This document shows, piece by piece, positions 1,059-63,697 of a stretch of DNA of 64,000 nt. A program made the position numbers and the translations under genes. A model generated the notes under the pieces. It worked only from the letters and a program-made list of their open reading frames with translations, had not been told where the DNA came from and did no database searches. Position 1 is the first letter of the stretch. Each line of letters opens with the position of its first letter. The stretch comes from Chitinophagales bacterium (GTDB lineage Bacteria > Bacteroidota > Bacteroidia > Chitinophagales > UBA2359). Location: NCBI GenBank assembly GCA_020636475.1, contig JACJXU010000001.1:310001-374000 (forward strand). Direction: 5' to 3'.

Positions 1059-2110
1059 TAACTCTCCGGCGAATAGCCGCAATTTTCCTTTATTTCGTTA
1101 AACGCTTGCGGAATACGTAATTTGTAAGCAGTCTGAAAATCCTTGCAGGCTTCGTCTCTTTCGTTAATACCCAAATACGCCAAGCCGCGATAGTAGAAAG
1201 CAAGTCCGTTGTTGGGGTCTAAAGCGATATTGGTGCTAAAATCTTTAATAGCATCGTAATAACCGCCCACCATACATTTGGCAATGCCGCGCCCTTGATA
1301 CGCCGGCGCAAAAAGTCCGTTAAAATCTATCACTTGATTAAAATCGGCAATGGCTTGGGTGAAGTTTCGGGCAGAAATATTGGCAGATGCACGCCCTTGA
1401 TACGCTAATACGTAGTCGGGTTTTTCGTTTATGGCTTTGGTGAAATTCTGAATGGCGGCTTCGGTTTTACCCAATTTCACATTTACCGCCCCTAAGTTGT
1501 AATTGATTATGGGGTCTTTGGGGGCGTAATTGGCTGCTTTTTCCAAGTCGCGCTGTCCTTTTTTGAGCATATCCAATTCTACATACGAATTGCCGCGCAG
1601 TTGGAGTAAATCTTTGTTGTACGGGTCTTTTTTAAGACACCACGACAACATTTTTACCGCCGATTCATAGTCTTCTTCATCAATACGGTCAATCGCTTCG
1701 CGGTAGTAATATTTAATGCTTTCTTCGTCGCGCAGGCTTAGCTTTTTGCGCGAGCTACTTACATAAACCGTATCAATATTGGCGGTATAGTAAATGTCGC
1801 CCAAATCAAGTTTCATAATGAGTTTTCCGTCTTTGGTGGTCGTCAATTCCGATTCTTTGGTAGCTTCTATCGGATGTCCCTGACTCTGTACAACTGTTTT
1901 GGTGGGACTTTCTTTTACTTTATTATCCTTTTTCGATTTTTTGTCTTTCTCTTTGTCTTTAGCAGCATTTTTATCTTTCGATACTTTTTTATCTTTTGAA
2001 GATGAATTGTTGCCATACATTTCAAAATCGTTGCCGCCAATCTGTGCGACAAGTGTAGTGGTACTCAATACACACAAAAGGAAGAATAAGCTATTTATAA
2101 AAAGTTTCAT
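1055..2110 (-). CDS. Exported tetratricopeptide-repeat (TPR) protein
   Basis: A 351-residue protein. It starts with a signal peptide (MKLFINSLFFLLCVLSTTTLVAQ region, residues 1-23) and then has a lysine/aspartate-rich low-complexity stretch (about residues 36-70). From about residue 130 to the end it carries consecutive TPR helices with typical signatures such as YNLGAVNVKLGKTEAAIQ and AFYYRGLAYLG. TPR arrays are protein-binding scaffolds, and here one probably works in the periplasm. No catalytic motif is seen and the partner is unknown. The gene is transcribed toward the Lgt-like gene and overlaps it by 4 bases, tail to tail. The TPR assignment is strong; the specific role is not known. Confidence 0.85.
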   Translation of the reverse strand: MKLFINSLFFLLCVLSTTTLVAQIGGNDFEMYGNNSSSKDKKVSKDKNAAKDKEKDKKSKKDNKVKESPTKTVVQSQGHPIEATKESELTTTKDGKLIMKLDLGDIYYTANIDTVYVSSSRKKLSLRDEESIKYYYREAIDRIDEEDYESAVKMLSWCLKKDPYNKDLLQLRGNSYVELDMLKKGQRDLEKAANYAPKDPIINYNLGAVNVKLGKTEAAIQNFTKAINEKPDYVLAYQGRASANISARNFTQAIADFNQVIDFNGLFAPAYQGRGIAKCMVGGYYDAIKDFSTNIALDPNNGLAFYYRGLAYLGINERDEACKDFQTAYKLRIPQAFNEIKENCGYSPESY

Positions 2111-2168
2111 TTCGGGAATATGATATAGAAATTGTCAATAATATTTTTTCACTGCAAAAATAATATAT

Positions 2169-2528
2169 TTAGCGCAGTATTACTTTAGTAATTACTTCCT
2201 GCCCAATGGCGGTGTTTGTTTTGGCAATAATTTCATTGGACAACATAGCCAATTCTTTTTTCAAAGGAGCAGAAGTAATTGTAAGATGAAGTTGAGCATC
2301 TTTTAGTTTAATATCTTGGGTATGATTGGCAATAAATTCGCCCACAATATTTTTCCACTCATTCCTAATTTTTGCTTCGGTTATTTTGTCGGTGAGTTGA
2401 TTTTGGGTAAAAAAAGATTGCAATGCATCTTTTAATAAAACTTCATTTTTTTTCAATTTATTGTAAATTTTAGATAAAGTGAACGACTTTTCGCCTACAA
2501 AAGTACAGTAGATAGCAAACATTTCCAA
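2169..2528 (-). CDS. DUF721 (DciA-like) protein
   Basis: A small cytoplasmic protein of the DUF721 family, recognised from the core 'LKDALQSFF...LTDKITEAKIRNEWKNIVG' pattern and the following basic beta segment (LHLTITSAPLKKEL). Related DciA proteins help load the replicative helicase in many bacteria, but that role is not established for the Bacteroidota versions. The ATG at 2528 gives 119 residues, with an N-terminal extension unusual for the family. A TTG at 2456 would give 95 residues starting MKKNEVLLKDAL, a more typical family start, and a -7-like box (TACTTTTG) lies between the two at 2498-2505. The shorter start is therefore quite possible. The gene lies directly downstream of the terminator of the giant surface protein. 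Confidence 0.75.
   Translation of the reverse strand: MEMFAIYCTFVGEKSFTLSKIYNKLKKNEVLLKDALQSFFTQNQLTDKITEAKIRNEWKNIVGEFIANHTQDIKLKDAQLHLTITSAPLKKELAMLSNEIIAKTNTAIGQEVITKVILR
2498..2505 (-). promoter_or_regulatory. Candidate -7 promoter element for the DUF721 gene
   Basis: On the minus strand this reads TACTTTTG, a match to the Bacteroidota -7 consensus TAnnTTTG. It lies inside the upstream-extended reading frame and about 42 bases before the TTG at 2456, so it supports the shorter start. No clear -33 TTTG is present at the usual spacing. Confidence 0.35.
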
Positions 2529-2548
2529 TATAACAAAATGATTTGGTT

Positions 2549-2589
2549 TTTGATATAAAAAAAGAGGTTGCCAGTTTTGGCAACCTCTT
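2549..2589 (-). terminator. Rho-independent terminator of the giant surface protein gene
   Basis: A perfect 11-bp stem (2562-2572 with 2579-2589, AAGAGGTTGCC) with a 6-base loop. On the minus strand it is followed by a run of U. It sits 36 bases past the stop codon of the 2626-8661 gene. Confidence 0.9.
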
Positions 2590-2625
2590 AAATTATTTAT
2601 TTAAACTAAAAAGAAAGAGTTTCTT

Positions 2626-5600
2626 TTATTTGCGTAGTTCTATGTAACCTGCTCTTTTAATAATCTTGCCTTCGGCATCGAATACACGCAATACATAGAA
2701 GTATGTTCCCATTGGTACTTGCTCGCCTACATTGTAAACTTGTCCGTTCCAAGTTAATTCATCTAACTTATCGGAAGTGTATAGTACACGACCCCAACGA
2801 TCTACAATGGTTAATTGAACTTTAGCACCTTTGCCAAATACATCTTCGATGTTGTTGATTGACCAGATATCATTGATACCATCACCGTTAGGCGACAATC
2901 CATTGCTTATTTCAACATCATCGGTAGTATCATCGGTAGTATCTACACGTCCACCAAATTCGTTACAACCGCCTACGTGAACTATCAACTCGTACACTTG
3001 AACATCGCCAGTTGTTGGATTTTCCATCGTAACTGTTACCGGATCATCACCACTAAACAATGGTACAGGCATGTATCTGAAGCAATTAGAACCTAACATT
3101 TTAATGCTACAGTGGTATGTATTGTCCACATCAGTTATTACATAACCTGGCTGACAAATATCCATACAAATTTCAATTGCGGTAAATTCTTCTGTACAGT
3201 AAACCGTTTGAATTGCGCAAGAAGACTCAATAGTTAAGGTAACTGTTGCCGTATCTGTTCCGCCATTTCCATCACATACTTGGTACACAAATGAATCGGT
3301 ACCTGTGTAGCCCGGATAAGCACTGTACACATAGCTATTTCCACTTATAGTAAGGCTTCCATATTGTGGCGCACTTGCAATACCACAAATAGTTAATGGG
3401 TCGCCGTCTGGATCTACGTCATTTTCAGTAACAGGCAAGGTTAAAGTTCCTCCTTCTGGTACTGTATAGCTATCGTCAGAAGCTAATGGTGCAGAGTTAG
3501 GTGTTCCACAATTGCTTGTAACCGTAACTACAATAACTGCTTCGTCGCATACACCTGCGTTGTTACAAGCGGTTACAGTAATGATTGCATCACCTGTGTA
3601 ACCAGGAACCGGAGTGTAGCGGAAACATTGGTCATTGAGCATAAATACTGTACAGTGACCGTAAACCGTGCTTACTTCAGTAATTGCGTAGTCGTTGCTA
3701 CCTTCAAACAAGCAGAAGTCAGGACAAAGAACGATTGGTTCCATAATACCTGTACATTCGTACATTGTTTCGTTGGTACATTGTGGACAATTTACATAAA
3801 TAGTAACAGTTGCTGTATCGGTTCCTCCATTACCATCACAAACGGTGTAAATAAAGGTAACAGTTCCTACATAACCTGTTTCAGGTGTGTAAGTAAATAC
3901 GCCGTTGTTCAAGCTCAAAGTACCGTGTGCAGGTTGTGTGTAATTACATACTGTAAGTTCATCGCCGTCCACATCAAAGTCGTTATCTAATACATCTATA
4001 GTAATTGCATCGCAGCTTGGTGCTGTTTCATTGTCATTTACTGCAATAGGCGGTGTATTTGGAATATCAACCGTTACTGTTACAGTAGCTGTATCTGTAC
4101 CACCATTACCATCGCAAATTGTGTAGTCGAAGTTGGCTACTCCTTCAAAACCTGCCGGTGGTGTGTAAATGAAGCAGTTGCCTACTAATTGTACACTTCC
4201 TACACTTGGTTGTTCGTAGTCACATACGGTTAATGGATCGCCGTCTGGGTCGCTATCATTTGTCAATACACAGATTGTTACTGGTGTACCATCACTTTCT
4301 TCAGTATCATTTACGGCTACTGGTGGATTGTTACAACCAATAATTACGTGTACCAAAATATGTACGCAGTTTTGGCCATTCGATGCTACGATGTCAATAT
4401 AATCTACGCCCACTAATTCCATACCCGGAAGTGGTGTGTAAACGATACAGTCATCCTCAATTTCAATACTACAGTTGTAGGTTGAATTCGCTTCGATAAT
4501 TGTAAAGTTGCCAGGTAAACAGAAGTCAGGACAAATTTGAACTGGTGTTTGTGGATTCGTACATACTGTCATATCGTTACAATCAATCGGATTATCACAA
4601 GTATTTCCACAGTTACCCACTTGTACATTAATAGTTACTGTTACACAAGTATTACCATCTAAAGAAGTAGCGTGTACTGTAATTACATCGTTGGCTGTAG
4701 TTGGTGAAGTATAGCTGAAACATCCGCTTTGGATATTTCCAATTTGACCGAATGCAGATTCAACTGAATTGAATACAAATCCGCTACCTAAACAAGTACT
4801 TGGACAAATGGTAGTAGTAGATGCAGCATCAACACATATTGTTTCAGAACATACTTGTACATTTTGACAACCAGTAGGTTCAGGAGAAATAACTGCATCG
4901 TCTTCATCGTCATAATCATCTACTACAGGGCTTCCATTGTTATCGCCAGGATTACTGTCAATGTCTTGTTCATTGGCTGTTTCAATTTCGGCTATGTTTA
5001 CAATATCACCACTTATACTTTGTACTTGTGCGTAAATATCTAAGTTTACAGTTGCTCCGGCAGCTAAGCTACCAATAGGCCAGATACCATTTGCAGGATT
5101 GTAACTACCATTTGCACCAATGTAAAGCAATCCACTTGGCAACATATCATAAACGCTTACACCTGTTGCATCGTCTGGTCCGTTGTTGGTTACACTAATA
5201 GTGTAGGTTACAACATCGCCCACTTTAACTTGGCTTACGTTTACAACTTTTGTCAATTCGAGGTCTATTACAGGTTCTGCATTTGGAACTATAACTGCAT
5301 CGTCTTCGTCATCGTAATCATTTACGTTAGGATTACCGTTGTTATCACCTGGATAACTGTCGATATCCGTTTCGTTCGCTGTTTCGATTTCTGCTATGTT
5401 CACAATTGGTCCGCTGATACTTACTACTTCGGCATAAATATCTAAAGACATTGTCTGATTTACCGCTAAGTCACCGATATACCAAATTCCGGTTATAGGA
5501 TCGTAATTTCCGTCAGAAATTACATAGTTCAATCCGGCAGGTAACATATCGTAAACACTTACGCCTGTCGCATTGTCCGGTCCTTTGTTTACTACGGTAA

Positions 5601-8600
5601 TAGTATAGGTAATCATATCGCCTACGGATACATTGTATGTATTAACCGATTTCACTAACTCAAGATCAATGGTAGGATTTTCCGAAGGAACGATAATAGC
5701 ACTGTCTTCATCATCATAATCATTAACATTAGGGCTACCATTGTTATCGCCAGGGAAGCTATCTATATCTTGCTCATTCGTAGTTTCTACTTCGGCAATA
5801 TTGGTAATCGGTCCGTTAATCGCTACAACTTCTGCTTCAATATCCAAAGAGAAAGAAGCATCTTTTTCGATTGTACCAACGTACCAAATTCCGGTTGATG
5901 GGTCATAATTTCCATCAGAACTAATGTAATTCAATCCGGCTGGTAACATATCATATACGCTTACACCTGTTGCCGTTGAAGGTCCGTTATTCCATACCGT
6001 AATGGTATAAGTAATCATATCACCTACACTTACTACTTGCTGATTCACCTCTTTGGATAATTCCACATCTACAATAGGAATCATCGGTGTAATAATTGCG
6101 CTATCTTCATCGTCGAAATCATCTACATTAGGACTACCATTGTTATCGCCAGGCGTAGAGTCAATGTCTTGTTCATTCGCTGTTTCTACTTCAGCAATAT
6201 TAACAGTATTACCATTAATACTTAATACAGTAGCAACAATGTCTAAATTAAGTTCTTCGCCTACGGCTAAATTACCAATGTACCAAATTCCGGTTGTAGG
6301 ATTATAATTTCCATCAGAATCAATATATTCTAATCCGACAGGTAGCATATCATATACACTTACACCTGTTGCGGCATCTGGACCTTTGTTGATAATGGAT
6401 AATGTATAGGTAATTTCATCGCCCACTTGTACTTGGGTTTGATTTACAACTTTCGTCAATTCCAAGTCGATGTACTGTTGCGTAGGAATAATAGTAGCAC
6501 TATCTTCATCGTCGTAGTCATCTACATTAGGATTGTTGTTGTTATCGCCCGGTGTAGAGTCAATATCCGTTTCGTTGGCAGTTTCCACTTCGGCAATATT
6601 CGTAATTGGTCCGGTAATGTTGGTCACAAAAGCATAAACATACAAAGTTGCTGTTTGATTTACACCAAGATTCCCAACATACCAAATTCCGGTAGCGGGG
6701 TTGTAGTTACCACTTGCGCCTACAAATTGAATTCCGTAAGGCAATTGGTCATATACACTTACACCTGTAGCTGCATCTGGACCTTTATTTACGATACTAA
6801 TAGTATAAGTGATAATGTCACCATTTTCTACCACCTGATAGTTCACCGTTTTAGACAATTCTAAATCTATTTGTGGCATGTCTACAGGGAAGATTGGAAC
6901 ACTGTCCTCATCATCTTCATCGTTTACATCCTCACTACCATTATTATTACCTGGTTCAGAGTCGATATCCGTTTCGTTAGTAGTTTCTACTTCGGCAACA
7001 TTTACTATTGGATCATTGATTGATACTACTTTTGCATAAATATCTAAAGATATTGGAGAATTTACCGGTAATATGCCAATTGTCCAAATACCTGTTGTAG
7101 GATTGTAAGAGCCATTATCGCCTACATATTGCAATCCGGCAGGTAACATATCATAAACAGTTACGCCTGTTGCTACGTCTGGACCTTTATTTACTACCGT
7201 AATAGTATAAGTAATAATATCATTTACACTTACAAATGCAGTACTCACCGATTTATCCAATTCAATATCAACAAAAGATGCTTGTATTGTTACAGGAATT
7301 AATGCAGGGTCTTGGTCGTCTTCGTCTGTAGAAGCGACACCACCACCTACCATACCTGTTCCATTACCATTTACCGCATTGTCCGCAGGACTATTAGGTT
7401 GACCACCCGCATCGTTCGTCGCGTCGCTGTCCGGTGTGCTGTCCACATCACTCAAGCCCAAAGCGTTGGTCGCTCCGCTTATCTCTGCATAGTTCACCAA
7501 ACTCGTGCCTTGGAAATTGCTGTCTATACTCAAGGTGATGTCTACACTCGCGCTCGTACCCGCCAACAGATTGCTCAAACCGCCTGTATAGCTCGCCGTT
7601 CCGTCCATATTGTCCGTCCACATTCCGTCATTCAAACTCATTCCCGCAGGAATGTAGTCGATTACACTCACACTCGTCGCATCTATGTTCCCCTGATTGT
7701 ATAGCGTTATCGTAAAGGTTACGTCATCGCCCGGACTGAATGGGCCCGCGCTGCTCAATACCTTCATCAAGGCTAAGTCGAATACCTGACCTACCTCAAC
7801 ACTCGCAGGGTCTTGGTCGTCTTCGTCTGTTACCGCTACATTATCACCCGGTACACCGCTGCCGTCGCCGTTCAACGCATCGTCTGATGGACTGTCGGCC
7901 TGGCCGCCCGCATCGTTCGTCGCGTCGCTGTCAGGTGTGCTGTCCACATCACTCAAGCCCAAAGCGTTGGTCGCTCCGCTTATCTCTGCATAGTTCACCA
8001 AACTCGTGCCTTGGAAATTGCTGTCTATACTCAAGGTGATGTCAACACTCGCGCTCGTGCCTGCCAACAGATTGCTCAAACCGCCTGTGTAGCTCGCCGT
8101 TCCGTCCATATTGTCTGTCCACATTCCGTCATTCAAACTCATTCCCGCAGGAATGTAGTCGATTACACTCACACTCGTCGCGTCTATGTTCCCTTGATTG
8201 TATAGCGTTATCGTAAAGGTTACGTCATCGCCCGGAATGAATGGGCCCGCGCTGCTCAATACCTTCATCAAGGCTAAGTCGAAACAAGCTGGATAAAATT
8301 CCAGAGGACAGCAAAGTTCCACCGGACAACCTCCAGCATCTAAACCAGTATAAACATAAACTCCTGGTTCTGTAATTTGTAGCACGCTACTATTACCGCC
8401 GTCAGCAGCAGCAATATCTACGGCACCCGAACCATCGTCGAATGTCCATTGAATATTAGTAATTTCTGCCGGAACAGTTGCCTGATACACATCATTAGTG
8501 CCTACGCACAATGGATATGGATCAGCACACGGTTCTTGAGCCGAGACAATTGTAAGTGGCAACACTAACATCAAGGCAATTGACATTAATGTTGAATAGT

Positions 8601-8661
8601 AGTTTCGCAACTTTACTAGCCCCACTGAACTAGTAACTGACCGAAGTAACTTTTTCTTCAT
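2626..8661 (-). CDS. Giant modular surface protein (DUF11 and cadherin-like repeats) with T9SS type B sorting domain
   Basis: A secreted 2,011-residue protein, likely exposed on the cell surface or in a sheath or matrix. The start at 8661 gives a signal peptide (about residues 1-41, ending LPLTIVSAQ); the open frame upstream to 8766 lacks one. Order of parts: a short Ig/PKD-like region, two nearly identical 167-residue DUF11 modules (FDLALMKVLSSAGPF...), six further DUF11 modules starting (I/V)D(L/V/I)EL.K, each ending in an acidic Asp/Asn-rich linker (DIDS.PGDNN), cysteine-rich segments, three cadherin/VCBS-like modules (PVAVNDTEESDG type with YTPPAGFEG), and a final about 90-residue type B C-terminal domain (NGLSPNGDGINDIW...GTYFYVLRV). 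Type B domains direct export by the type IX system. The acidic linkers suggest calcium binding (inference). Ligand and role are unknown; adhesion is a guess. Confidence 0.9.
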   Translation of the reverse strand: MKKKLLRSVTSSVGLVKLRNYYSTLMSIALMLVLPLTIVSAQEPCADPYPLCVGTNDVYQATVPAEITNIQWTFDDGSGAVDIAAADGGNSSVLQITEPGVYVYTGLDAGGCPVELCCPLEFYPACFDLALMKVLSSAGPFIPGDDVTFTITLYNQGNIDATSVSVIDYIPAGMSLNDGMWTDNMDGTASYTGGLSNLLAGTSASVDITLSIDSNFQGTSLVNYAEISGATNALGLSDVDSTPDSDATNDAGGQADSPSDDALNGDGSGVPGDNVAVTDEDDQDPASVEVGQVFDLALMKVLSSAGPFSPGDDVTFTITLYNQGNIDATSVSVIDYIPAGMSLNDGMWTDNMDGTASYTGGLSNLLAGTSASVDITLSIDSNFQGTSLVNYAEISGATNALGLSDVDSTPDSDATNDAGGQPNSPADNAVNGNGTGMVGGGVASTDEDDQDPALIPVTIQASFVDIELDKSVSTAFVSVNDIITYTITVVNKGPDVATGVTVYDMLPAGLQYVGDNGSYNPTTGIWTIGILPVNSPISLDIYAKVVSINDPIVNVAEVETTNETDIDSEPGNNNGSEDVNDEDDEDSVPIFPVDMPQIDLELSKTVNYQVVENGDIITYTISIVNKGPDAATGVSVYDQLPYGIQFVGASGNYNPATGIWYVGNLGVNQTATLYVYAFVTNITGPITNIAEVETANETDIDSTPGDNNNNPNVDDYDDEDSATIIPTQQYIDLELTKVVNQTQVQVGDEITYTLSIINKGPDAATGVSVYDMLPVGLEYIDSDGNYNPTTGIWYIGNLAVGEELNLDIVATVLSINGNTVNIAEVETANEQDIDSTPGDNNGSPNVDDFDDEDSAIITPMIPIVDVELSKEVNQQVVSVGDMITYTITVWNNGPSTATGVSVYDMLPAGLNYISSDGNYDPSTGIWYVGTIEKDASFSLDIEAEVVAINGPITNIAEVETTNEQDIDSFPGDNNGSPNVNDYDDEDSAIIVPSENPTIDLELVKSVNTYNVSVGDMITYTITVVNKGPDNATGVSVYDMLPAGLNYVISDGNYDPITGIWYIGDLAVNQTMSLDIYAEVVSISGPIVNIAEIETANETDIDSYPGDNNGNPNVNDYDDEDDAVIVPNAEPVIDLELTKVVNVSQVKVGDVVTYTISVTNNGPDDATGVSVYDMLPSGLLYIGANGSYNPANGIWPIGSLAAGATVNLDIYAQVQSISGDIVNIAEIETANEQDIDSNPGDNNGSPVVDDYDDEDDAVISPEPTGCQNVQVCSETICVDAASTTTICPSTCLGSGFVFNSVESAFGQIGNIQSGCFSYTSPTTANDVITVHATSLDGNTCVTVTINVQVGNCGNTCDNPIDCNDMTVCTNPQTPVQICPDFCLPGNFTIIEANSTYNCSIEIEDDCIVYTPLPGMELVGVDYIDIVASNGQNCVHILVHVIIGCNNPPVAVNDTEESDGTPVTICVLTNDSDPDGDPLTVCDYEQPSVGSVQLVGNCFIYTPPAGFEGVANFDYTICDGNGGTDTATVTVTVDIPNTPPIAVNDNETAPSCDAITIDVLDNDFDVDGDELTVCNYTQPAHGTLSLNNGVFTYTPETGYVGTVTFIYTVCDGNGGTDTATVTIYVNCPQCTNETMYECTGIMEPIVLCPDFCLFEGSNDYAITEVSTVYGHCTVFMLNDQCFRYTPVPGYTGDAIITVTACNNAGVCDEAVIVVTVTSNCGTPNSAPLASDDSYTVPEGGTLTLPVTENDVDPDGDPLTICGIASAPQYGSLTISGNSYVYSAYPGYTGTDSFVYQVCDGNGGTDTATVTLTIESSCAIQTVYCTEEFTAIEICMDICQPGYVITDVDNTYHCSIKMLGSNCFRYMPVPLFSGDDPVTVTMENPTTGDVQVYELIVHVGGCNEFGGRVDTTDDTTDDVEISNGLSPNGDGINDIWSINNIEDVFGKGAKVQLTIVDRWGRVLYTSDKLDELTWNGQVYNVGEQVPMGTYFYVLRVFDAEGKIIKRAGYIELRK
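7304..8283. repeat. 501-bp tandem duplication within the surface protein gene
   Basis: Two consecutive copies of a 501-bp (167-codon) unit, offset by exactly 501 bases: matched landmarks are 7304/7805 and 7771/8272. They differ at a few scattered positions, mostly near the linker. The unit is visibly richer in G and C than the rest of the gene and uses different codons (for example GTC, CTC and GCC classes) from the six downstream DUF11 modules. This suggests a recent duplication of a module of different origin. Confidence 0.9.
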
Positions 8662-9193
8662 ACATTTATTTTTAAACAAATAATTAAAACGCATCAAATA
8701 TCTTGGCCATTCTGTTAAGTAGATGCCAAGGAAATAATGGTAATTTTTTTTCATTTTCATTATCAATGATTTTTATATTATAAATATATATTTTATGTTA
8801 ATTTTAAATTATAGCTTATAGCTCCTTATAACAAGGCTATAAATGGGTATCTGTTGATTTGCAGCAAATTTTTTGCCAATGTTTCCCAAAATTTCTATAT
8901 AAAAAAAATATCCCCTACAATTTGTAATGACAATAAGACCATTTGTTATTAAAATGGACACAAAAAATTAATTATCAATAATTTACGAACAAAAAAACCG
9001 TTTAAAGGATTTCTTTTTTGGAAGTATTTTAGGACACCATCTGTCTTTATATAAGAGGAAAAAAGATGATATAGAGAGGAGTAGTCTATTTTTTAAGGCA
9101 ACTTTACACTACAAAACATACTAATCCATATCAATACTTTTCAATTATACAATTAAGGTATTTTTTGAAAAAAGAGTAGGTTTTATCCTTATT
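8662..9193. other. Intergenic region upstream of the surface protein gene
   Basis: About 530 very AT-rich bases between truA's stop and the surface protein's start. It should hold the promoter for the surface protein and the end of the truA transcript. I see no perfect TAnnTTTG box on the minus strand, no strong terminator hairpin and no convincing small gene. Confidence 0.5.
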
Positions 9194-55189: not shown

Positions 55190-55332
55190 TTGGGTTATTC
55201 TCCAAATATCTGCTTACTTAAAATGTCTTAAAAGTGTAATATTTTGGGGAAATATTTTGCATTATAAAAATTCTCAACTATATTCACACTAAGTTTAATT
55301 TTTTAGTAACATTTTAAATACTTAGAACTATG

Positions 55333-55380
55333 CAATCCAGCAATCCAGCAATCCAGCAATCCAGCAATCCAGCAATCCAG
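55333..55380 (+). repeat. Six tandem 8-bp repeats (CAATCCAG), candidate phase-variation tract
   Basis: Six perfect copies of CAATCCAG directly follow an ATG (55330) and precede a TAG (55381). The downstream lipoprotein frame, read back from its ATG at 55400, is open through 55382 and encodes the front of a signal peptide (SSIFLYLMAFVLIFGYAC). The ATG at 55330 is one base out of phase with it. Adding one repeat, or removing two, would join them, so the tract could switch the gene by slipped-strand mispairing. Confidence 0.85.
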
Positions 55381-55399
55381 TAGTATCTTTCTTTATTTA

Positions 55400-56806
55400 A
55401 TGGCTTTTGTGCTTATTTTTGGCTATGCTTGCAAAAAGCAAGAAATTGAAATTAGTAATAGTGCAAGACTAAATGTAGGAGAAGATGTTTTATCTTTTGA
55501 AAATAGGGCTGCCTTCTTAGATTTGTATGAAGAGTTGAAAGTTGCAACCGATGCGGAAAAAGAAACGATTTTTAACCGAACCTATCATGAAAACTTTACA
55601 CCACTAAGAAATTATGATCTTGAAATAGCGGAAAATGCAGATCCATTAGGTATTCCTTACATTGATGAAGAAACCTATTATATAGGCGATGATAATTTTG
55701 CCGCCCTGCTGAATGAGGAGGGAAAAATAGTTATAAATGATAGTATTTACGCTTACACCCCTAATGGACTTTGGTACTGCTCTCTGACTAATGAAGAAAT
55801 ATTAAGTCGTTTTTTGGAAAGCGATACGTACCGGAACTACCAAGTGCCTACGGGAGAAGACCACTCTATCGTTTCTTTTGAAAACATAAACATTCATCAT
55901 TTTAGCAACTTGCCTGCGAGTATTAGCGAGTATGAGGAGATTGATGATGTGCCAGTAGTAATTCCTCCTCCTACAAATTGTTTTAATATTCAAAATACAC
56001 TTACAGAATGTACTCCCTATGGCAATGCTTTTTCTGTTTTTGGAGCACAATGTATTTGTAATGAATACTTTGATAGTAAACATAGAGTGCGTACACATTT
56101 TATGAATCAAAATTATGGCTTTTTCAAAATAGCCATGGTCAATGTAAAATATCAAAAAAAAGGATTAGGTTGGAATAAAACCAAAACAAACGAATTATGT
56201 ATGACTATTTTAGATGGATACTATGAAATTCATCAACCAGGATTTAGTATGCCCACTATACCCACAAACAACAACTCTAACCCCCTATTTAACACCTACT
56301 TAGCCTATTATGACAATAAAATTTACAATGCTTGGGGTGTTCCCATTGGAACTAATAATAGTTATCCTTTTGGATTAGGCTTAATTGATCCAGAGTTTAG
56401 TATTCAATTCTATATTCCACTTTTCAATATACCAATTACTACTACGGGAGCGCAAGTTACTAATTTTTTTTGGCAACAAGCTTGGAGTGCAGCAACAAGT
56501 GTTCTATTTCAGTTATCTCAGCAAGATGAAGTAAATGGTAGTGAAATTATTATTAATGCACAAAATATAACAATGTATAATTTAAAAAATTACAAGGAGC
56601 ATTGTGAAAATTGCTCAGAATTGGACAAATATTTTCACAACCCATTTGCGGTAACTCTTAGTTTTAATAATAGTGGTGGAAGTTTTACATTAGGTTCCGC
56701 AGTTCCTGGGCCAACAGCAGATGCTAAAAATTTTAAATTAAAGTTTTATGGTGCTGCATACAGCCATGCAATGTGGAAAGGAAATTTAATTAATTACGCA
56801 GACTAA
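55400..56806 (+). CDS. Putative phase-variable lipoprotein of unknown function
   Basis: A 468-residue product if started at ATG 55400. That start gives a truncated signal (MAFVLIFGYACKKQ) with lipobox-like GYAC but no basic N-region. With 4, 7 or 10 upstream repeats, translation from 55330 would add M-QSSNPAIQ units and the missing SSIFLYL, completing a hydrophobic signal. The present six-copy state looks OFF or weakly ON. The mature part is acidic, with several cysteines (CSLTNEEIL, CFNIQNTLTECTPYGN, CICNEYF, EHCENCSEL) and an ending NLINYAD. I recognise no family. Two paralogous secreted proteins follow within 14 bases, which suggests a common operon. Confidence 0.7.
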   Translation: MAFVLIFGYACKKQEIEISNSARLNVGEDVLSFENRAAFLDLYEELKVATDAEKETIFNRTYHENFTPLRNYDLEIAENADPLGIPYIDEETYYIGDDNFAALLNEEGKIVINDSIYAYTPNGLWYCSLTNEEILSRFLESDTYRNYQVPTGEDHSIVSFENINIHHFSNLPASISEYEEIDDVPVVIPPPTNCFNIQNTLTECTPYGNAFSVFGAQCICNEYFDSKHRVRTHFMNQNYGFFKIAMVNVKYQKKGLGWNKTKTNELCMTILDGYYEIHQPGFSMPTIPTNNNSNPLFNTYLAYYDNKIYNAWGVPIGTNNSYPFGLGLIDPEFSIQFYIPLFNIPITTTGAQVTNFFWQQAWSAATSVLFQLSQQDEVNGSEIIINAQNITMYNLKNYKEHCENCSELDKYFHNPFAVTLSFNNSGGSFTLGSAVPGPTADAKNFKLKFYGAAYSHAMWKGNLINYAD

Positions 56807-56820
56807 TAAAACTTACAACC

Positions 56821-57375
56821 ATGAGAAATTTACTTGCCTATTTTATATTATTTTCATTTGGTTTTTCTATTTCTGCACAGGAAAATGAAACAAGCCATTA
56901 TCCTAAAACAATTTATTATTGGGAAATAGGTATTATGGGGAGCGAACTATCTTTAGAACACACCTTCCGTGATTTTTGGATAGCAAAAGCGGGAGTGGGT
57001 TATGAAGGTGCTATATTTAGAGACTTTCCCTATGATGAACTATATTGGGGGTTTACACCAACTCTAAAATTGGAAATGCGTTACAACAAATTCTCAAAAC
57101 AAAGGCGCATCAACAAAGGAAAAGATATTACAAGAAACGCAGGGAGCCATTTAGGGCTTGTTTTTCTACAAAATTTTCCTGAATTTAATATTGACTACAT
57201 TAATGGAAATAAAGTAACTGCACCTAACGGTAGATATGTTGGTTTGTCGTTTGGTATTCGGCGCAATTTTTGGAAATACTTTAGCTTTAATTATACTGCA
57301 AGTTTAGGAAGCTATTTGGTACGCAAAGAAGCAAAAGGGTTTATGGAACTTAGGTGGTATGTACATTTTAACTGA
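56821..57375 (+). CDS. Secreted protein of unknown family (first of a tandem pair)
   Basis: A 184-residue protein with a signal peptide (ending FSISAQ, residue 20). It shares clear segments with its downstream neighbour: YYWEIGIMGSELSLEHTFRDFW, RYNKFSKQRRI, RNAGSHLGL, and RRNFWKYFSFN. Amphipathic strands with aromatic residues suggest a small outer-membrane or beta-barrel protein, but I recognise no domain. It follows the lipoprotein gene by 14 bases and precedes the paralogue by one base. Confidence 0.7.
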   Translation: MRNLLAYFILFSFGFSISAQENETSHYPKTIYYWEIGIMGSELSLEHTFRDFWIAKAGVGYEGAIFRDFPYDELYWGFTPTLKLEMRYNKFSKQRRINKGKDITRNAGSHLGLVFLQNFPEFNIDYINGNKVTAPNGRYVGLSFGIRRNFWKYFSFNYTASLGSYLVRKEAKGFMELRWYVHFN

Positions 57376-57376
57376 C

Positions 57377-57961
57377 ATGCAGAAAAAATATTATTTACTA
57401 TTTTTCATTTTTTTAAGTGCTAACCTTATGGCACAATACAACAATGTACAACTAAACGATCCCACCCGCAACACGCCCAAAAACTTGGTGTATTGGGAGT
57501 TGGGTCTATTGACTACAGACTTTGCCATTGAACATACGCTAAGTGAATATTGGACGCTAAAATGTGCGGTAGGTTACGATGGAAATTTTGCTTTACTTGA
57601 ATACAAAGGAACACCACACTGGTTATTTGATGCTTTTATAGAAACAGAACTTCGCTATAACAAGTTTTCAAAACAAAGGCGCATACGCAAAAACAAAGAC
57701 ACTTGGCGCAATGCCGGAAGCTACATGGGTATAAAATATTTACAATATTTCCCTACATTAAGTATTCATATTAATGAAAATGGGAGTCCTTACACAGCAA
57801 GCAATGCACAGGCTCTAATGTTTAAGTACGGCTTGAAACGGAATTTTTGGAAATACTTTAGCTTCAATGGAGGACTTAGTATTGGTTCTAATTTTACAAG
57901 TCGGAAAGTTGCTATACAAACAGAATTTGACATTGGTGTTTATTTTAACGGTTATAAGTAA
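57377..57961 (+). CDS. Secreted protein of unknown family (second of a tandem pair)
   Basis: A 194-residue protein, ATG at 57377 (MQKKYYLLFFIFLSANLMAQ signal). Compared with its upstream paralogue, it keeps VYWELGLLTTDFAIEHTLSEYW, RYNKFSKQRRIRKNKDTWRNAGSYMG and KRNFWKYFSFN. The pair is a local duplication, well diverged outside these blocks. It ends 12 bases before a terminator-like hairpin. Role unknown; a function with the phase-variable lipoprotein is inferred from the gene order. Confidence 0.7.
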   Translation: MQKKYYLLFFIFLSANLMAQYNNVQLNDPTRNTPKNLVYWELGLLTTDFAIEHTLSEYWTLKCAVGYDGNFALLEYKGTPHWLFDAFIETELRYNKFSKQRRIRKNKDTWRNAGSYMGIKYLQYFPTLSIHINENGSPYTASNAQALMFKYGLKRNFWKYFSFNGGLSIGSNFTSRKVAIQTEFDIGVYFNGYK

Positions 57962-57973
57962 TCATTTCACTAC

Positions 57974-58012
57974 AGCGAGGCGGGGTTTAGCGTTAAATTC
58001 TGCCTTGCTTTT
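57974..58012 (+). terminator. Terminator of the lipoprotein-paralogue operon
   Basis: A 10-bp stem (57974-57983 AGCGAGGCGG with 58000-58009 CTGCCTTGCT; two G-U pairs) followed by TTTT. It lies just after the second paralogue and before the rlmD promoter. Confidence 0.6.
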
Positions 58013-59824: not shown

Positions 59825-62800
59825 ATGAAAAAAATAAAAAAAACCGTGAACAATTTAAACAAATTGGAACCAAAAAAGGCACTGAACAAAGCCTTTTTAA
59901 AAGTAAAACCGAATAGGACTGAAATTGAAGGTTTCAAGACCAATCTTATTGCTTTACTAGACAGGACAAATGACACCGAAAGCGAAGAATTTCATAAAAA
60001 TCTTGTCATCGACTTTTTTAAGAAAACCTATTACGACCCAAATCATTTCATCAATACCAAAGGTCGAAACGACCTTGTTATTCACAATGGCAATACAGCT
60101 AAAAGTTCCGTTGGTGTAATCATTGAAGCTAAAAAACCGACCAACAAAGCGGAAATGATTACAACCAAAAAACTGAACGCAAAAGCATTTCAGGAATTAG
60201 TTTTGTATTACTTACGAGAAAGAATTACACATAAAAATCTTGAAGTAAAACATTTGGTGGCGACCAACATCAATGAATGGTTCATTTTTGACGCTACCCT
60301 ATTTGATAGACTTTTTGCTCAAAATAAAAATTTTGTAAAACAATTCAACGACTTTGAAGGTGGACGTTTGGCAGATACCAAAACGGATTTTTTCTACAAA
60401 CAAATTGCCGAGCCGTTTATTGATAGCATTACTTCTGAAATTGAATTTACATACTTCAATTTTAACGATTATTATAACCCACGAATTAATTCGTGGGTTA
60501 TAGATGATAACAACCTTATTCCGTTATTCAAACTTTTATCACCTGAGCATCTTTTAAAACTTCCTTTTACCAACGACAGCAACAGCCTTGACAAACGCTT
60601 TTATAGCGAGTTGTTGCACATTATCGGCTTGACCGAAACCAAAGAAGGAAGCAAAAAACTGATTGAGCGAAACAAAGCAGGTGAACGCCACACGGGAACA
60701 ATCCTTGAAGATGCCATCATTCAGCTTGACAGCTTAGATAAACTCAGCCGATTGGAAAAACCAAGCCAATTCGGCAACACACAAGAGGAACGACTTTTTA
60801 ATGTTGCTCTTGAACTTTCCATCACTTGGATAAACCGCATTTTGTTTTTGAAGTTGTTGGAAGCCCAACTTATCACCTATCACAAAGGCGACAAATCTTT
60901 TTCGTTTCTCAATCTTGATAAAATCAAGAACTATGATGACCTGAATAGCTTGTTTTTTCAGGTGTTGGCTCGCAAGTATGACGAGCGAAACGAAGATGTA
61001 AAAAAGGCTTTTGAAAAAGTTCCTTATCTTAACTCATCGCTGTTTGAACCAACGGATTTAGAACATCAAGCTTTTCCAATAAGCAGTTTGAGAGAAAAAG
61101 AAATTCCGATTTTTTCGCAAACCGTGCTGAAAGACCAGCAAGGCAAAAAACGGTCGGGCAATATTTCCACGCTTCAATATTTGTTCGAGTTTTTAGATGC
61201 TTACGACTTTGGTGCAGAAGGCGGTAGCGACATTCAGGAAGACAACAAAACACTGATTAACGCTTCGGTGCTTGGATTGATTTTCGAGAAAATAAACGGC
61301 TACAAAGACGGCTCATTTTTCACTCCCGGTTTCATCACAATGTATATGTGCCGTGAAACCATTCGCAAAGCTGTTGTGCAGAAATTTGACCAAGATTTTC
61401 CTGATTATCGGATTAGCAAGATGGAGGATATTTATGAGTTGATTCCGCAAAAAATATCAAGAAAAAATGCCAATGAAATTATCAACTCACTAAAAATATG
61501 CGACCCTGCTGTGGGTTCAGGGCATTTTTTGGTTTCGGCCTTAAATGAGATAATTGCTGTAAAGAATGATTTGAAAATTTTGGAAGACAAAGAAGGTAAA
61601 TCTTTACACCGCTACGAAATAGAAGTGGTGAACGATGAACTGATTGTAACAGACGAAGATGGCGAACTGTTTGAATACAACCCAAGCAATAAAGAAAGTC
61701 AACGCATACAAGAAACACTTTTCCACGAAAAGCAAACCATTATTGAAAACTGCCTTTTTGGTGTGGACATCAATGCCAACTCCGTGAAAATTTGCCGTTT
61801 GCGTTTGTGGATTGAGCTTTTAAAAAACGCCTATTACAAGAACGCAACCGAACTTGAAACACTTCCGAATATTGACATCAATATAAAATGCGGAAACTCT
61901 TTGGTGAGCCGTTTTGCCATTGATGCCGACCTGAAACAAGCATTGAAAAAAAGCAAGTGGACGATTGACAGCTACCGAATAGCCGTTGATACTTACCGCA
62001 ATGCTGAAAGCAAAGAACAGAAAAGAGAAATGGAACGACTGATTGCCGACATTAAATCGGATTTTAGAAGTGAAATTTCATTGAACGACCCGAAAGTAAA
62101 GAAGCTACGAAAACTTTCAGGCGACTTGTATCAAATGACCAATCAGGGGCAACTTTTTGAAATGAGCAAAAAGGAAAAAGCCGATTGGAACAAAAAAGTG
62201 CAACAACTTACCGCAGAAACCAAAAAACTTGAAACTGAAATTGAAGAAATAAAAGCCAACAAGATTTTTGAAAACGCTTTTGAATGGCGTTTTGAATTTC
62301 CTGAAGTGCTGAATGATGATGGCGATTTTGTGGGTTTTGATGTGGTGATTGGGAATCCGCCTTATATGCGAGTTCAAGAAATACAAGCATCACAGCCAAC
62401 GCAAAAATTATATTACGAAAGTCAATATCAAAACGCAAAAGCCGCCTATGATTTAGCCAATATCTTTTTTGAATTAGCGGTAAACATTTCAAGTATTAAA
62501 AGCAACAACTCTTATATTTTTCCTCATAAATTTTTCAATGCAGCAAGTTCTGAAGTATTCAGAAACTATTTAAAACAAGGTCAATTTATTGATGAAATCG
62601 CCCACTTTGGTGCGAATATGATTTTTGAAGATGCTGATACCTATACTTGTGTAGCTCAATTCAGCAAAAAATCAAGTCAAGGATTTTATTTTCAACGTTT
62701 CCCTTTTAAATCAGATTTCAAAAATTTGATGCTTGATAACAGCAAATACACATTTATCACCTATGAAATGATTGATAAGGCCTCTAAACTTTACGGAAGC

Positions 62801-63697
62801 AATCAATGGGTTTTGTTTGATGATACAATTGGCTTTAATGTTTTTGAAAAGATTTATAAGCAAACAGACAGTATCTCAACCAAATTCACAAGAGTTTCAC
62901 AGGGGATTGCTACAGGAAAAGATGAGATTTATCTGTTTGAAGGTAAAGAAGATGGTGCATACATAAAAGGAAACTTTATTAAAGACAAAGAACAAAGGCA
63001 GATTGAAAAATCAATTATGAAACCATTCTTAAAAGGAAAAGATGTTCAAAGGTATTCTGCACCTGCAAAAGAACTTTTTATCTTGTTTCCTTACAATTTG
63101 TCTGAATCAGGTAAGGCATCAATTATGCCTGAATCCGAAATAAAAGAGAAGTATCCAAATGCATATCAATGGCTCAAAGAAACAGAAGATATACATCGAA
63201 AAAAAGATAATAAAAGCACTAATGATAATTTTTGGTATCGTTACGCAAGAAATCAAGGCGTTGATTATGTAGAATTGCCCAAACTTTCTTCAATGGAAAT
63301 TTGTGCAAAACACCCCAATGTGATTTTTAATCAAGATAATTTTTATCATCCGACAACGGTTTATAGTTGGGTCAAAAAAGAAGATACAAAAGAAAGTTAT
63401 GAGTATCTATTGGCAATTGCCAATTCAAAACTTCTGTGGTGGTTTCTCAAAACTACGGGTGATACGCTACAAGGTGATGCAAGACGGTTTAAAACGAATT
63501 ACTTAAATCCGTTTCCATTACCAGCTTCTGTTGACCAAGATATTGAAAATGAAATTTCAGATTTAGTACTAAAAGTAATGGAGCAAAAGAAAATGAATGA
63601 AAAAACAGACACCACAGACTTAGAAAAACAAATAGACCAATTGATTTATCAGCTTTATGAGTTGACCGAAGAAGAAATTAAAATTATTGAAGCATAA
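59825..63697 (+). CDS. Single-chain type II restriction-modification enzyme (type IIG/Eco57I-like)
   Basis: A 1,290-residue protein with nuclease, methyltransferase and target-recognition parts. N-terminal PD-(D/E)xK nuclease signs: NDLVIHNG (Asp83) and VIIEAKK (Glu101, Lys103). N6-adenine methyltransferase motifs follow: ICDPAVGSGHFLVS (SAM-binding motif I, about residue 560) and VVIGNPPYMR (motif IV, about 840), of the Eco57I methylase type. A C-terminal TaqI-like specificity region (about 1000-1250, with RFKTNYLNPFPLP near its end) closes the protein. It probably cuts foreign DNA lacking its own methylation. Its stop overlaps the DUF262 gene start by one base. A 30-bp palindrome lies in codons around residues 217-226. 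Recognition site unknown. Confidence 0.88.
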   Translation: MKKIKKTVNNLNKLEPKKALNKAFLKVKPNRTEIEGFKTNLIALLDRTNDTESEEFHKNLVIDFFKKTYYDPNHFINTKGRNDLVIHNGNTAKSSVGVIIEAKKPTNKAEMITTKKLNAKAFQELVLYYLRERITHKNLEVKHLVATNINEWFIFDATLFDRLFAQNKNFVKQFNDFEGGRLADTKTDFFYKQIAEPFIDSITSEIEFTYFNFNDYYNPRINSWVIDDNNLIPLFKLLSPEHLLKLPFTNDSNSLDKRFYSELLHIIGLTETKEGSKKLIERNKAGERHTGTILEDAIIQLDSLDKLSRLEKPSQFGNTQEERLFNVALELSITWINRILFLKLLEAQLITYHKGDKSFSFLNLDKIKNYDDLNSLFFQVLARKYDERNEDVKKAFEKVPYLNSSLFEPTDLEHQAFPISSLREKEIPIFSQTVLKDQQGKKRSGNISTLQYLFEFLDAYDFGAEGGSDIQEDNKTLINASVLGLIFEKINGYKDGSFFTPGFITMYMCRETIRKAVVQKFDQDFPDYRISKMEDIYELIPQKISRKNANEIINSLKICDPAVGSGHFLVSALNEIIAVKNDLKILEDKEGKSLHRYEIEVVNDELIVTDEDGELFEYNPSNKESQRIQETLFHEKQTIIENCLFGVDINANSVKICRLRLWIELLKNAYYKNATELETLPNIDINIKCGNSLVSRFAIDADLKQALKKSKWTIDSYRIAVDTYRNAESKEQKREMERLIADIKSDFRSEISLNDPKVKKLRKLSGDLYQMTNQGQLFEMSKKEKADWNKKVQQLTAETKKLETEIEEIKANKIFENAFEWRFEFPEVLNDDGDFVGFDVVIGNPPYMRVQEIQASQPTQKLYYESQYQNAKAAYDLANIFFELAVNISSIKSNNSYIFPHKFFNAASSEVFRNYLKQGQFIDEIAHFGANMIFEDADTYTCVAQFSKKSSQGFYFQRFPFKSDFKNLMLDNSKYTFITYEMIDKASKLYGSNQWVLFDDTIGFNVFEKIYKQTDSISTKFTRVSQGIATGKDEIYLFEGKEDGAYIKGNFIKDKEQRQIEKSIMKPFLKGKDVQRYSAPAKELFILFPYNLSESGKASIMPESEIKEKYPNAYQWLKETEDIHRKKDNKSTNDNFWYRYARNQGVDYVELPKLSSMEICAKHPNVIFNQDNFYHPTTVYSWVKKEDTKESYEYLLAIANSKLLWWFLKTTGDTLQGDARRFKTNYLNPFPLPASVDQDIENEISDLVLKVMEQKKMNEKTDTTDLEKQIDQLIYQLYELTEEEIKIIEA
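60473..60502. repeat. 30-bp perfect palindrome within the restriction-modification gene
   Basis: TATAACCCACGAATT followed immediately by its reverse complement, with no spacer, inside the reading frame (encoding about YNPRINSWVI). It lies in a region with no other repeated sequence. Confidence 0.85.

Follow-up and report, generated by a model that had tools for sequence, protein, structure and literature searches.

A lipoprotein gene on the forward strand of the 64,000-nucleotide stretch of Chitinophagales DNA analysed here (the window) probably carries a translational on/off switch, or contingency locus, in the form of an octanucleotide tract between an ATG and the signal-peptide codons. Support for this phase-variation reading comes mainly from the tracts of distant relatives. 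We give an even chance to a wider reading, namely that in the Saprospiraceae-containing order a family of lipoproteins, frequently accompanied by a small outer-membrane barrel, became a slippage-switched surface gene several times separately, each time with a different repeat at the signal-peptide end (8-mer, 11-mer, dinucleotide or homopolymer), and that in some of these Bacteroidota, such as genome G426, further lipoproteins are switched by repeats as well. If true, this would be repeat-based phase variation in a lineage known to switch by DNA inversion.

The tract consists of six CAATCCAG units, all perfect (55333-55380), placed directly after the ATG at 55330-55332. The perfect period-8 run extends from 55332 to 55380 (49 bases, 6.1 units) and overlaps the G of this ATG. 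It is far beyond chance: 100 Markov-1 simulations of 64 kb gave a longest period-8 run of 20 bases, with a mean of 16.3. Strong tracts were defined as G/C runs of at least 8, dinucleotide repeats of at least 6, and longer units above set limits, the unit not being a multiple of three; no other strong tract of this kind was found within the 64 kb. The unit contains no stop codon and its length is not a multiple of three. As in SSR contingency loci, the repeat stands at the start of a reading frame in an accepted copy number (8 bases x 6), and changes in the number of units shift the gene into and out of frame.

The reading frames of the window tract were determined computationally for every copy number from 0 to 12. 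At 0, 3, 6, 9 and 12 copies, that is, also in the present state, the frame of ATG 55330 terminates at TAG (55381-55383). The lipoprotein frame, which includes an internal ATG at 55400, extends without interruption from 55382 to the stop codon at 56804-56806 (474 codons). At six copies it lies one base off the register of ATG 55330, the distance from this ATG being 70 bases to position 55400 and 100 bases (1 mod 3) to the lipobox cysteine codon. With 1, 4, 7 or 10 copies there is a single open protein with the full signal peptide (478, 486, 494 and 502 aa, respectively). All this agrees with an earlier note on this DNA, which had described the six repeats behind the ATG, the frame closed at 55381, the out-of-phase lipoprotein frame and the 70-base distance, and had predicted a complete signal peptide at 4, 7 or 10 copies and none at 5, 6 or 8. 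The note did not contain a third state, which appears at 2, 5, 8 and 11 copies: the frame of ATG 55330 then terminates at a TAA overlapping ATG 55400, TAATG(G) at 55397-55402, where coupled restart may take place.

The proposed mechanism is as follows. Slipped-strand mispairing would lengthen or shorten, by 8-base units, the tract that separates ATG 55330 from the signal-peptide codons; loops of 8 and 11 bases are poor substrates for mismatch repair. At 4, 7 or 10 units, translation from ATG 55330 would continue into the complete lipoprotein signal peptide, and the in-register lipoprotein would be exported, lipidated and possibly exposed on the surface alongside the small outer-membrane barrels encoded downstream. 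At other counts the ribosome would halt at TAG 55381 or at TAATG 55397, and any product would lack a usable signal peptide; the assembled six-unit copy would be the off state. Slippage itself, its reversibility, lipidation, surface location and an advantage, for example in evading phages or grazers, are what we infer from this layout, and the barrels are putative partners of the lipoprotein.

The segment 55382-55432 encodes the signal-peptide core SIFLYLMAFVLIFGYA and the lipobox cysteine (TGC, 55430-55432); in the six-copy state it is not in register with ATG 55330. The mature protein begins with this cysteine, and the remainder of the gene (55433-56806) is an open frame with distant relatives. 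As in other bacterial lipoproteins, a hydrophobic core is followed by a lipobox ending in cysteine (FLYLMAFVLIFGYAC-KKQE); Gly at position -3 of the lipobox is unusual. Relatives have lysine or arginine before the core, unlike the joined signal peptide of the window, where neither residue precedes the core at any in-register copy number and a positive n-region is thus absent. This is a point against the switch. No Pfam or NCBIfam family matched the lipoprotein above the cut-off; Pfam DUF5730 (PF19001) scored 14 bits with a cut-off of 25, and the protein was not assigned to it. The fold predicted without an alignment had a mean pLDDT of 34, too low for use.

One possibility is that the true start is ATG 55400 and the tract is leader DNA or RNA, acting through spacing, regulator binding or coupled restart, similar to the TAACTGA repeats discussed below. 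Indeed, gene callers choose 55400: the copy of the lipoprotein in the protein collection (P0002), 100% identical over 92% of the query, begins at the Met of 55400 and ends 31 residues early, being a further record of the same gene. The TAATG at 5 or 8 copies would permit coupled restart, and many CAATCCAG tracts of other genomes lie outside reading frames. Short direct repeats just before start codons are described, in hosts including five Bacteroidetes (PMC4679880). However, a start at 55400 would leave 10 residues before the lipobox cysteine, compared to 16-30 (counted by eye) in 18 relatives with an in-frame ATG, the nearest ordinary relatives included, and to 11-36 in 48 control ORFs, of which three have 13 or fewer. 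The codons ahead of 55400 specify hydrophobic residues that fit a signal peptide, and the tracts of the relatives sit within the coding 5' end. A start at 55400 therefore seems quite improbable, and the short distance to the cysteine lends further support to switching. Switching would also mean that gene callers place the start of such genes at a wrong internal codon and lose the signal peptide.

A search for CAATCCAG in 84,980 genomes yielded 25 stretches (L001-L025) with arrays of 3 to 14 units, spanning, by record title, at least ten phylum- or class-level groups. The octamer as a general mark of gene starts was rejected, as in only one of the 25, L023, does a long frame run in register from an ATG immediately before the array. 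In this locus (approximately 6569-6640, Armatimonadetes bacterium 55-13) the array follows an ATG with GGAGG ahead of it, and reads in register into a type IV prepilin-like protein (FTLIELLVVIAIIAIL). The frame past the array in L017 also opens a prepilin-like protein. In L009 the unit shifts along the array (AGCAATGA, AGCAATCC, GGCAATCC). Two contigs of Planctomycetaceae Gsp477_bin66, at the end of L002 and the start of L017, break off within 13-14 octamer copies.

Such breaks are relevant to the possibility of an assembly or sequencing artefact, with the real copy number being constant and in register, since tandem repeats can be mis-sized by short-read assemblies. On the other hand, an ordinary read spans the 49-base tract, an error of 8-base units is unlike common sequencing errors, and the same accident would be required for the other multi-base tracts of the relatives. 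An artefact is very unlikely.

The lipoprotein gene is preceded by a promoter-like site, TTTG - 19 nt - TATATTCA (55256-55286, forward strand), resembling the Bacteroidota -33/-7 pattern, TTTG / TAnnTTTG. A consensus scan flags TTTGCA/TATATT at 55256-55284; this is weak, as 20 sites were found compared to 12.1 expected in shuffles. Fourteen bases past the lipoprotein gene, on the same strand, starts the gene of a small outer-membrane-barrel-like protein (56821-57375, 184 aa), characterised by a structure model, Foldseek and the family alignment A3. The model, made from two sequences, has 8-9 strands (nine including the signal region). The best Foldseek matches among solved structures were OmpA, Ail, NspA and OmpW; the match to OmpA had E 3e-5 and TM 0.52, with a mean pLDDT of only 67.3 for the model. 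The second barrel-like protein (57377-57961, forward strand; listed ORF start 57359) is 41% identical to the first. Neither barrel has a Pfam match, and both genes are intact. The three-gene unit is followed by a terminator-like hairpin (57974-58009, forward strand), again a weak prediction, as two such sites were found with 2.3 expected in shuffles.

The three genes in the region 55200-57961 have no relatives in the protein collection and are flanked by conserved-looking genes. The G+C content is 33.5% in the lipoprotein gene, 34.7% in the barrel genes and 39.6% in the window, and the low-G+C unit may be a recent arrival. Elsewhere, the window encodes a large type II restriction-modification-like protein (59825-63697; DUF7149, DUF7814, Eco57I methylase, TaqI_C) and a surface-type protein of 2046 aa (2626-8766) with a 399-base tandem repeat at 5874-6600.

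Searches against 5.8 billion proteins recovered only the lipoprotein itself (among 4319 candidates), only the window protein when an alignment of four relatives was used (6013 candidates), and only the second barrel itself and the neighbouring barrel (20 candidates). In genomes, the lipoprotein matched in 4 cases out of 396 at E <= 0.01. Two were kept, L034/L038 in G625 and L035/L039 in G760. L036 (E 0.004), where the match sits inside an unrelated gene, and L037 (E 0.009), an unrelated open frame, were discarded. The search with the two barrels matched in 3 of 119, including G426, where a lipoprotein gene directly precedes the barrel (L032/L040). The four-row alignment A2 matched in 6 of 127, 3 of 4, 8 of 100 and 16 of 298, the last set containing most genomes of the set of 100. 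The similarity to the window lipoprotein is 25% over 239 columns for L038 (E 3e-14), 35% over 78 columns for L039 (E 8e-11) and a weak 30% over 63 columns for L040 (E 0.001); L136 matched the A2 profile at 1.4e-9.

The RpoB of the window genome is at most 78% identical to its counterparts in the comparisons with 8 of the 9 genomes of matched loci and 369 of the 395 genomes of the same class; the closest were G005 in the former set, and G005 and G151 in the latter. Two MAGs, G005 (labelled Phaeodactylibacter sp.) and G001 (labelled uncultured Saprospiraceae bacterium), belong to the family of G625. We regard the window as part of a genome from the Saprospiraceae-containing order.

The census of this divergent family covers 27 loci with a readable 5' end, including the window; L134 and L121, whose 5' ends are cut by contig ends, were excluded. 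Seventeen loci (L115, L116, L117, L122, L126-L130, L135, L137-L143) have an ordinary single-frame signal peptide and no tract; in one of these, L141, no ATG was spotted at the usual distance. In L118 and L119 the ATG is followed at once by eight A, in register. L124, the second family member of G426, has a broken frame and no tract, and L131 and L132 have no lipobox.

The remaining five loci contain a slippable tract between the ATG and the lipobox cysteine, with a different unit in each. Besides the window, with its 8-mer x6, the tract abuts the ATG in L038 of G625, where three copies of an 11-mer, (CAATCTACAAG)3, overlap the G of the ATG, and in L040 of G426, where the tract is (AC)11.5. L136 of G922 has C8 at 15 bases after the ATG, and L039 of G760 has T8 inside the signal peptide. 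In all five loci the ATG and the cysteine are out of register. The distant relatives thus vary in the repeat unit and not in the count of one unit. Congeners were checked for other copy numbers: one of two genomes matched in the genus of G922 and one of eight in that of G625, each being the already known genome. Taken together, the register, position and unit of the window tract and the other out-of-register tracts in relatives support the slippage-driven on/off switching suggested in the earlier note.

Not all of these tracts are equally convincing. T8 and the 11-mer x3 are weak evidence taken alone; both are below the Campylobacter cut-offs given in PMC6321876 (poly-A/T of at least 10, tetra-, penta- and longer units of at least 5). 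Sequence errors may account for homopolymer tracts in draft genomes. In L038, a run of eight A just past the lipobox cysteine (6656-6663) shifts the mature part to yet another frame; it is possibly a second switch, or a sequence error. A few kb before the tract gene, the same locus has a tandem pair of near-identical lipoprotein genes (1894-5289, MKTINKFFYSALILSIFSLLFVSCEKE), with a secreted protein encoded behind each.

A small barrel gene of the same family is found one or two genes downstream in four of the five tract loci (the window, L038, L040, L039), with one further gene in between in L038 and L039; the contig of L136 stops approximately 300 bases past the lipoprotein gene. Switching of the barrel family as a whole was considered and rejected, as only L038-L040 pair a barrel with a tract lipoprotein among the listed matches of 46 regions.

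Together with a second lipoprotein gene of G426 (L151), six tracts were examined, and all six are out of register; the probability of this is about 0.09 if one third are on. The all-off state could also be explained by assembly error or by decay. In the latter case the window gene would be a decaying pseudogene, where neutral expansion of the tract broke the signal peptide and there is no switching. The gene is patchy across genomes, being present, for example, in one of eight genomes of one genus, and the broken frame of L124 demonstrates that breaks without a tract exist in the family. However, the long frame past the window tract is open over all its 474 codons, both downstream barrel genes have remained intact, and neutral decay would not be expected to give relatives across the order a variety of tracts in one and the same short stretch. 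We consider decay unlikely, although less so than the start at 55400.

Strong tracts are rare in the regions studied, with 13 distinct ones (14 rows, one duplicate) in 84 non-redundant loci comprising 510,219 bases. In the ATG-to-cysteine stretches of 26 relatives approximately 0.07 were expected and three (11-mer, AC, C8) were seen, a probability of about 5e-5 that is a guide only, because the loci are no random sample. As a control, 60 lipoprotein-like ORFs were selected by a strict rule, which missed L038 and L040. Strong tracts at most 130 nt before the cysteine were observed in two of them, the window and L136, both from this family. A/T runs of at least eight precede the cysteine in five of the 60, three of which are outside the family, and therefore T8 of L039 means little alone. 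G922 has seven G/C runs of eight in 200 kb, most of them at other positions within genes; at this rate the probability of a chance C8 in any one specified 100-base stretch is roughly 0.4%.

The maximum-likelihood tree of 28 rows requires five changes of the tract label, at least three of them forced by well-supported branches, and shows no clustering of the label (shuffled mean 4.7). The details of the tree are unsure because the end branches are long. It does not favour a single inherited tract for the whole family; rather, it asks for repeated appearance of the tract label, in three to five separate changes. The units of the window and L038 (CAATC-C-AG and CAATC-TACA-AG) are similar and may have a common origin.

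In G426, 11 strong tracts were found in 63 loci (579,400 bases of about 2.7 Mb). Four of them are dinucleotide repeats, of which only two reach eight units, (AC)11.5 and (TC)10.5, both in 5' ends of lipoprotein genes. The latter lies in the signal-peptide codons of L151 (contig C6, 5224-5270), out of register with the ATG. According to a table in PMC4060949, dinucleotide repeats of at least five units are strongly under-represented in Bacteroidetes, and therefore these two tracts are more telling. In the same genome, (GAACA)7.8 (L040, 6839-6877) and nine consecutive C (L041, 3795-3803) precede open frames at distances of about 130 and 40 bases, respectively; both are possible promoter-side switches.

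Repeat-driven phase variation is long established (PMC11868660, PMC2651432), and nearly all work on it concerns host-adapted pathogens. The variety of repeats occupying one site in a single lipoprotein family suggests selection for random surface variation beyond the usual pathogens, with phages or predators perhaps as the drivers. Long repeats are stated in PMC4060949, citing earlier work, to correlate with dependence on a eukaryotic host, which leaves open that the window organism is host-associated and not free-living. In the open-licence literature no paper was found for Saprospiraceae together with phase variation, and no comparable slippage case among the papers listed for Bacteroidetes or Bacteroidota with repeat terms. 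This agrees with the earlier note, which called descriptions of such switching in environmental Bacteroidota rare. The mechanism, translational SSR phase variation, is long known in pathogens; the gene family and the lineage are new to it in this literature.

The closest known layout is that of Helicobacter pylori oipA, where CT repeats in the signal-peptide codons switch an outer-membrane protein; as in the window, the repeat lies in the 5' coding end of the signal peptide and unit changes shift the frame (PMC10564699). The (TC)10.5 and (AC)11.5 genes of G426 share this layout. On the other hand, the window unit has eight bases, the lipoprotein is not a Hop porin and the phylum is different; variation is proven in H. 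pylori and predicted for the window. In Haemophilus influenzae, lic1A carries (CAAT)n. The tetranucleotide loci of this species resemble the window in having the repeat directly after the ATG, as noted for one glycosyltransferase locus, and a unit that is not a multiple of three; they differ in the four-base unit and in belonging to a host-adapted pathogen, whose octanucleotides occupy other positions, upstream of genes (PMC2651432).

In Bacteroides, surface components are switched by invertible promoters and invertase systems, and the cases found work by inversion (PMC11868660, PMC3090145). Switching of the surface would be common to these systems and the window, whereas the mechanisms, site-specific promoter inversion and slippage in a reading frame, differ. 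Slippage at a run of four C was raised as a possibility in B. fragilis (PMC3090145). Finally, the TAACTGA direct repeats of Beggiatoaceae, Cyanobacteria and five Bacteroidetes are, like the window tract, short tandem repeats beside start codons in several phyla. However, their seven-base unit contains a stop codon and mostly lies upstream of the start codon, and they were proposed to be binding sites, not frame switches (PMC4679880).
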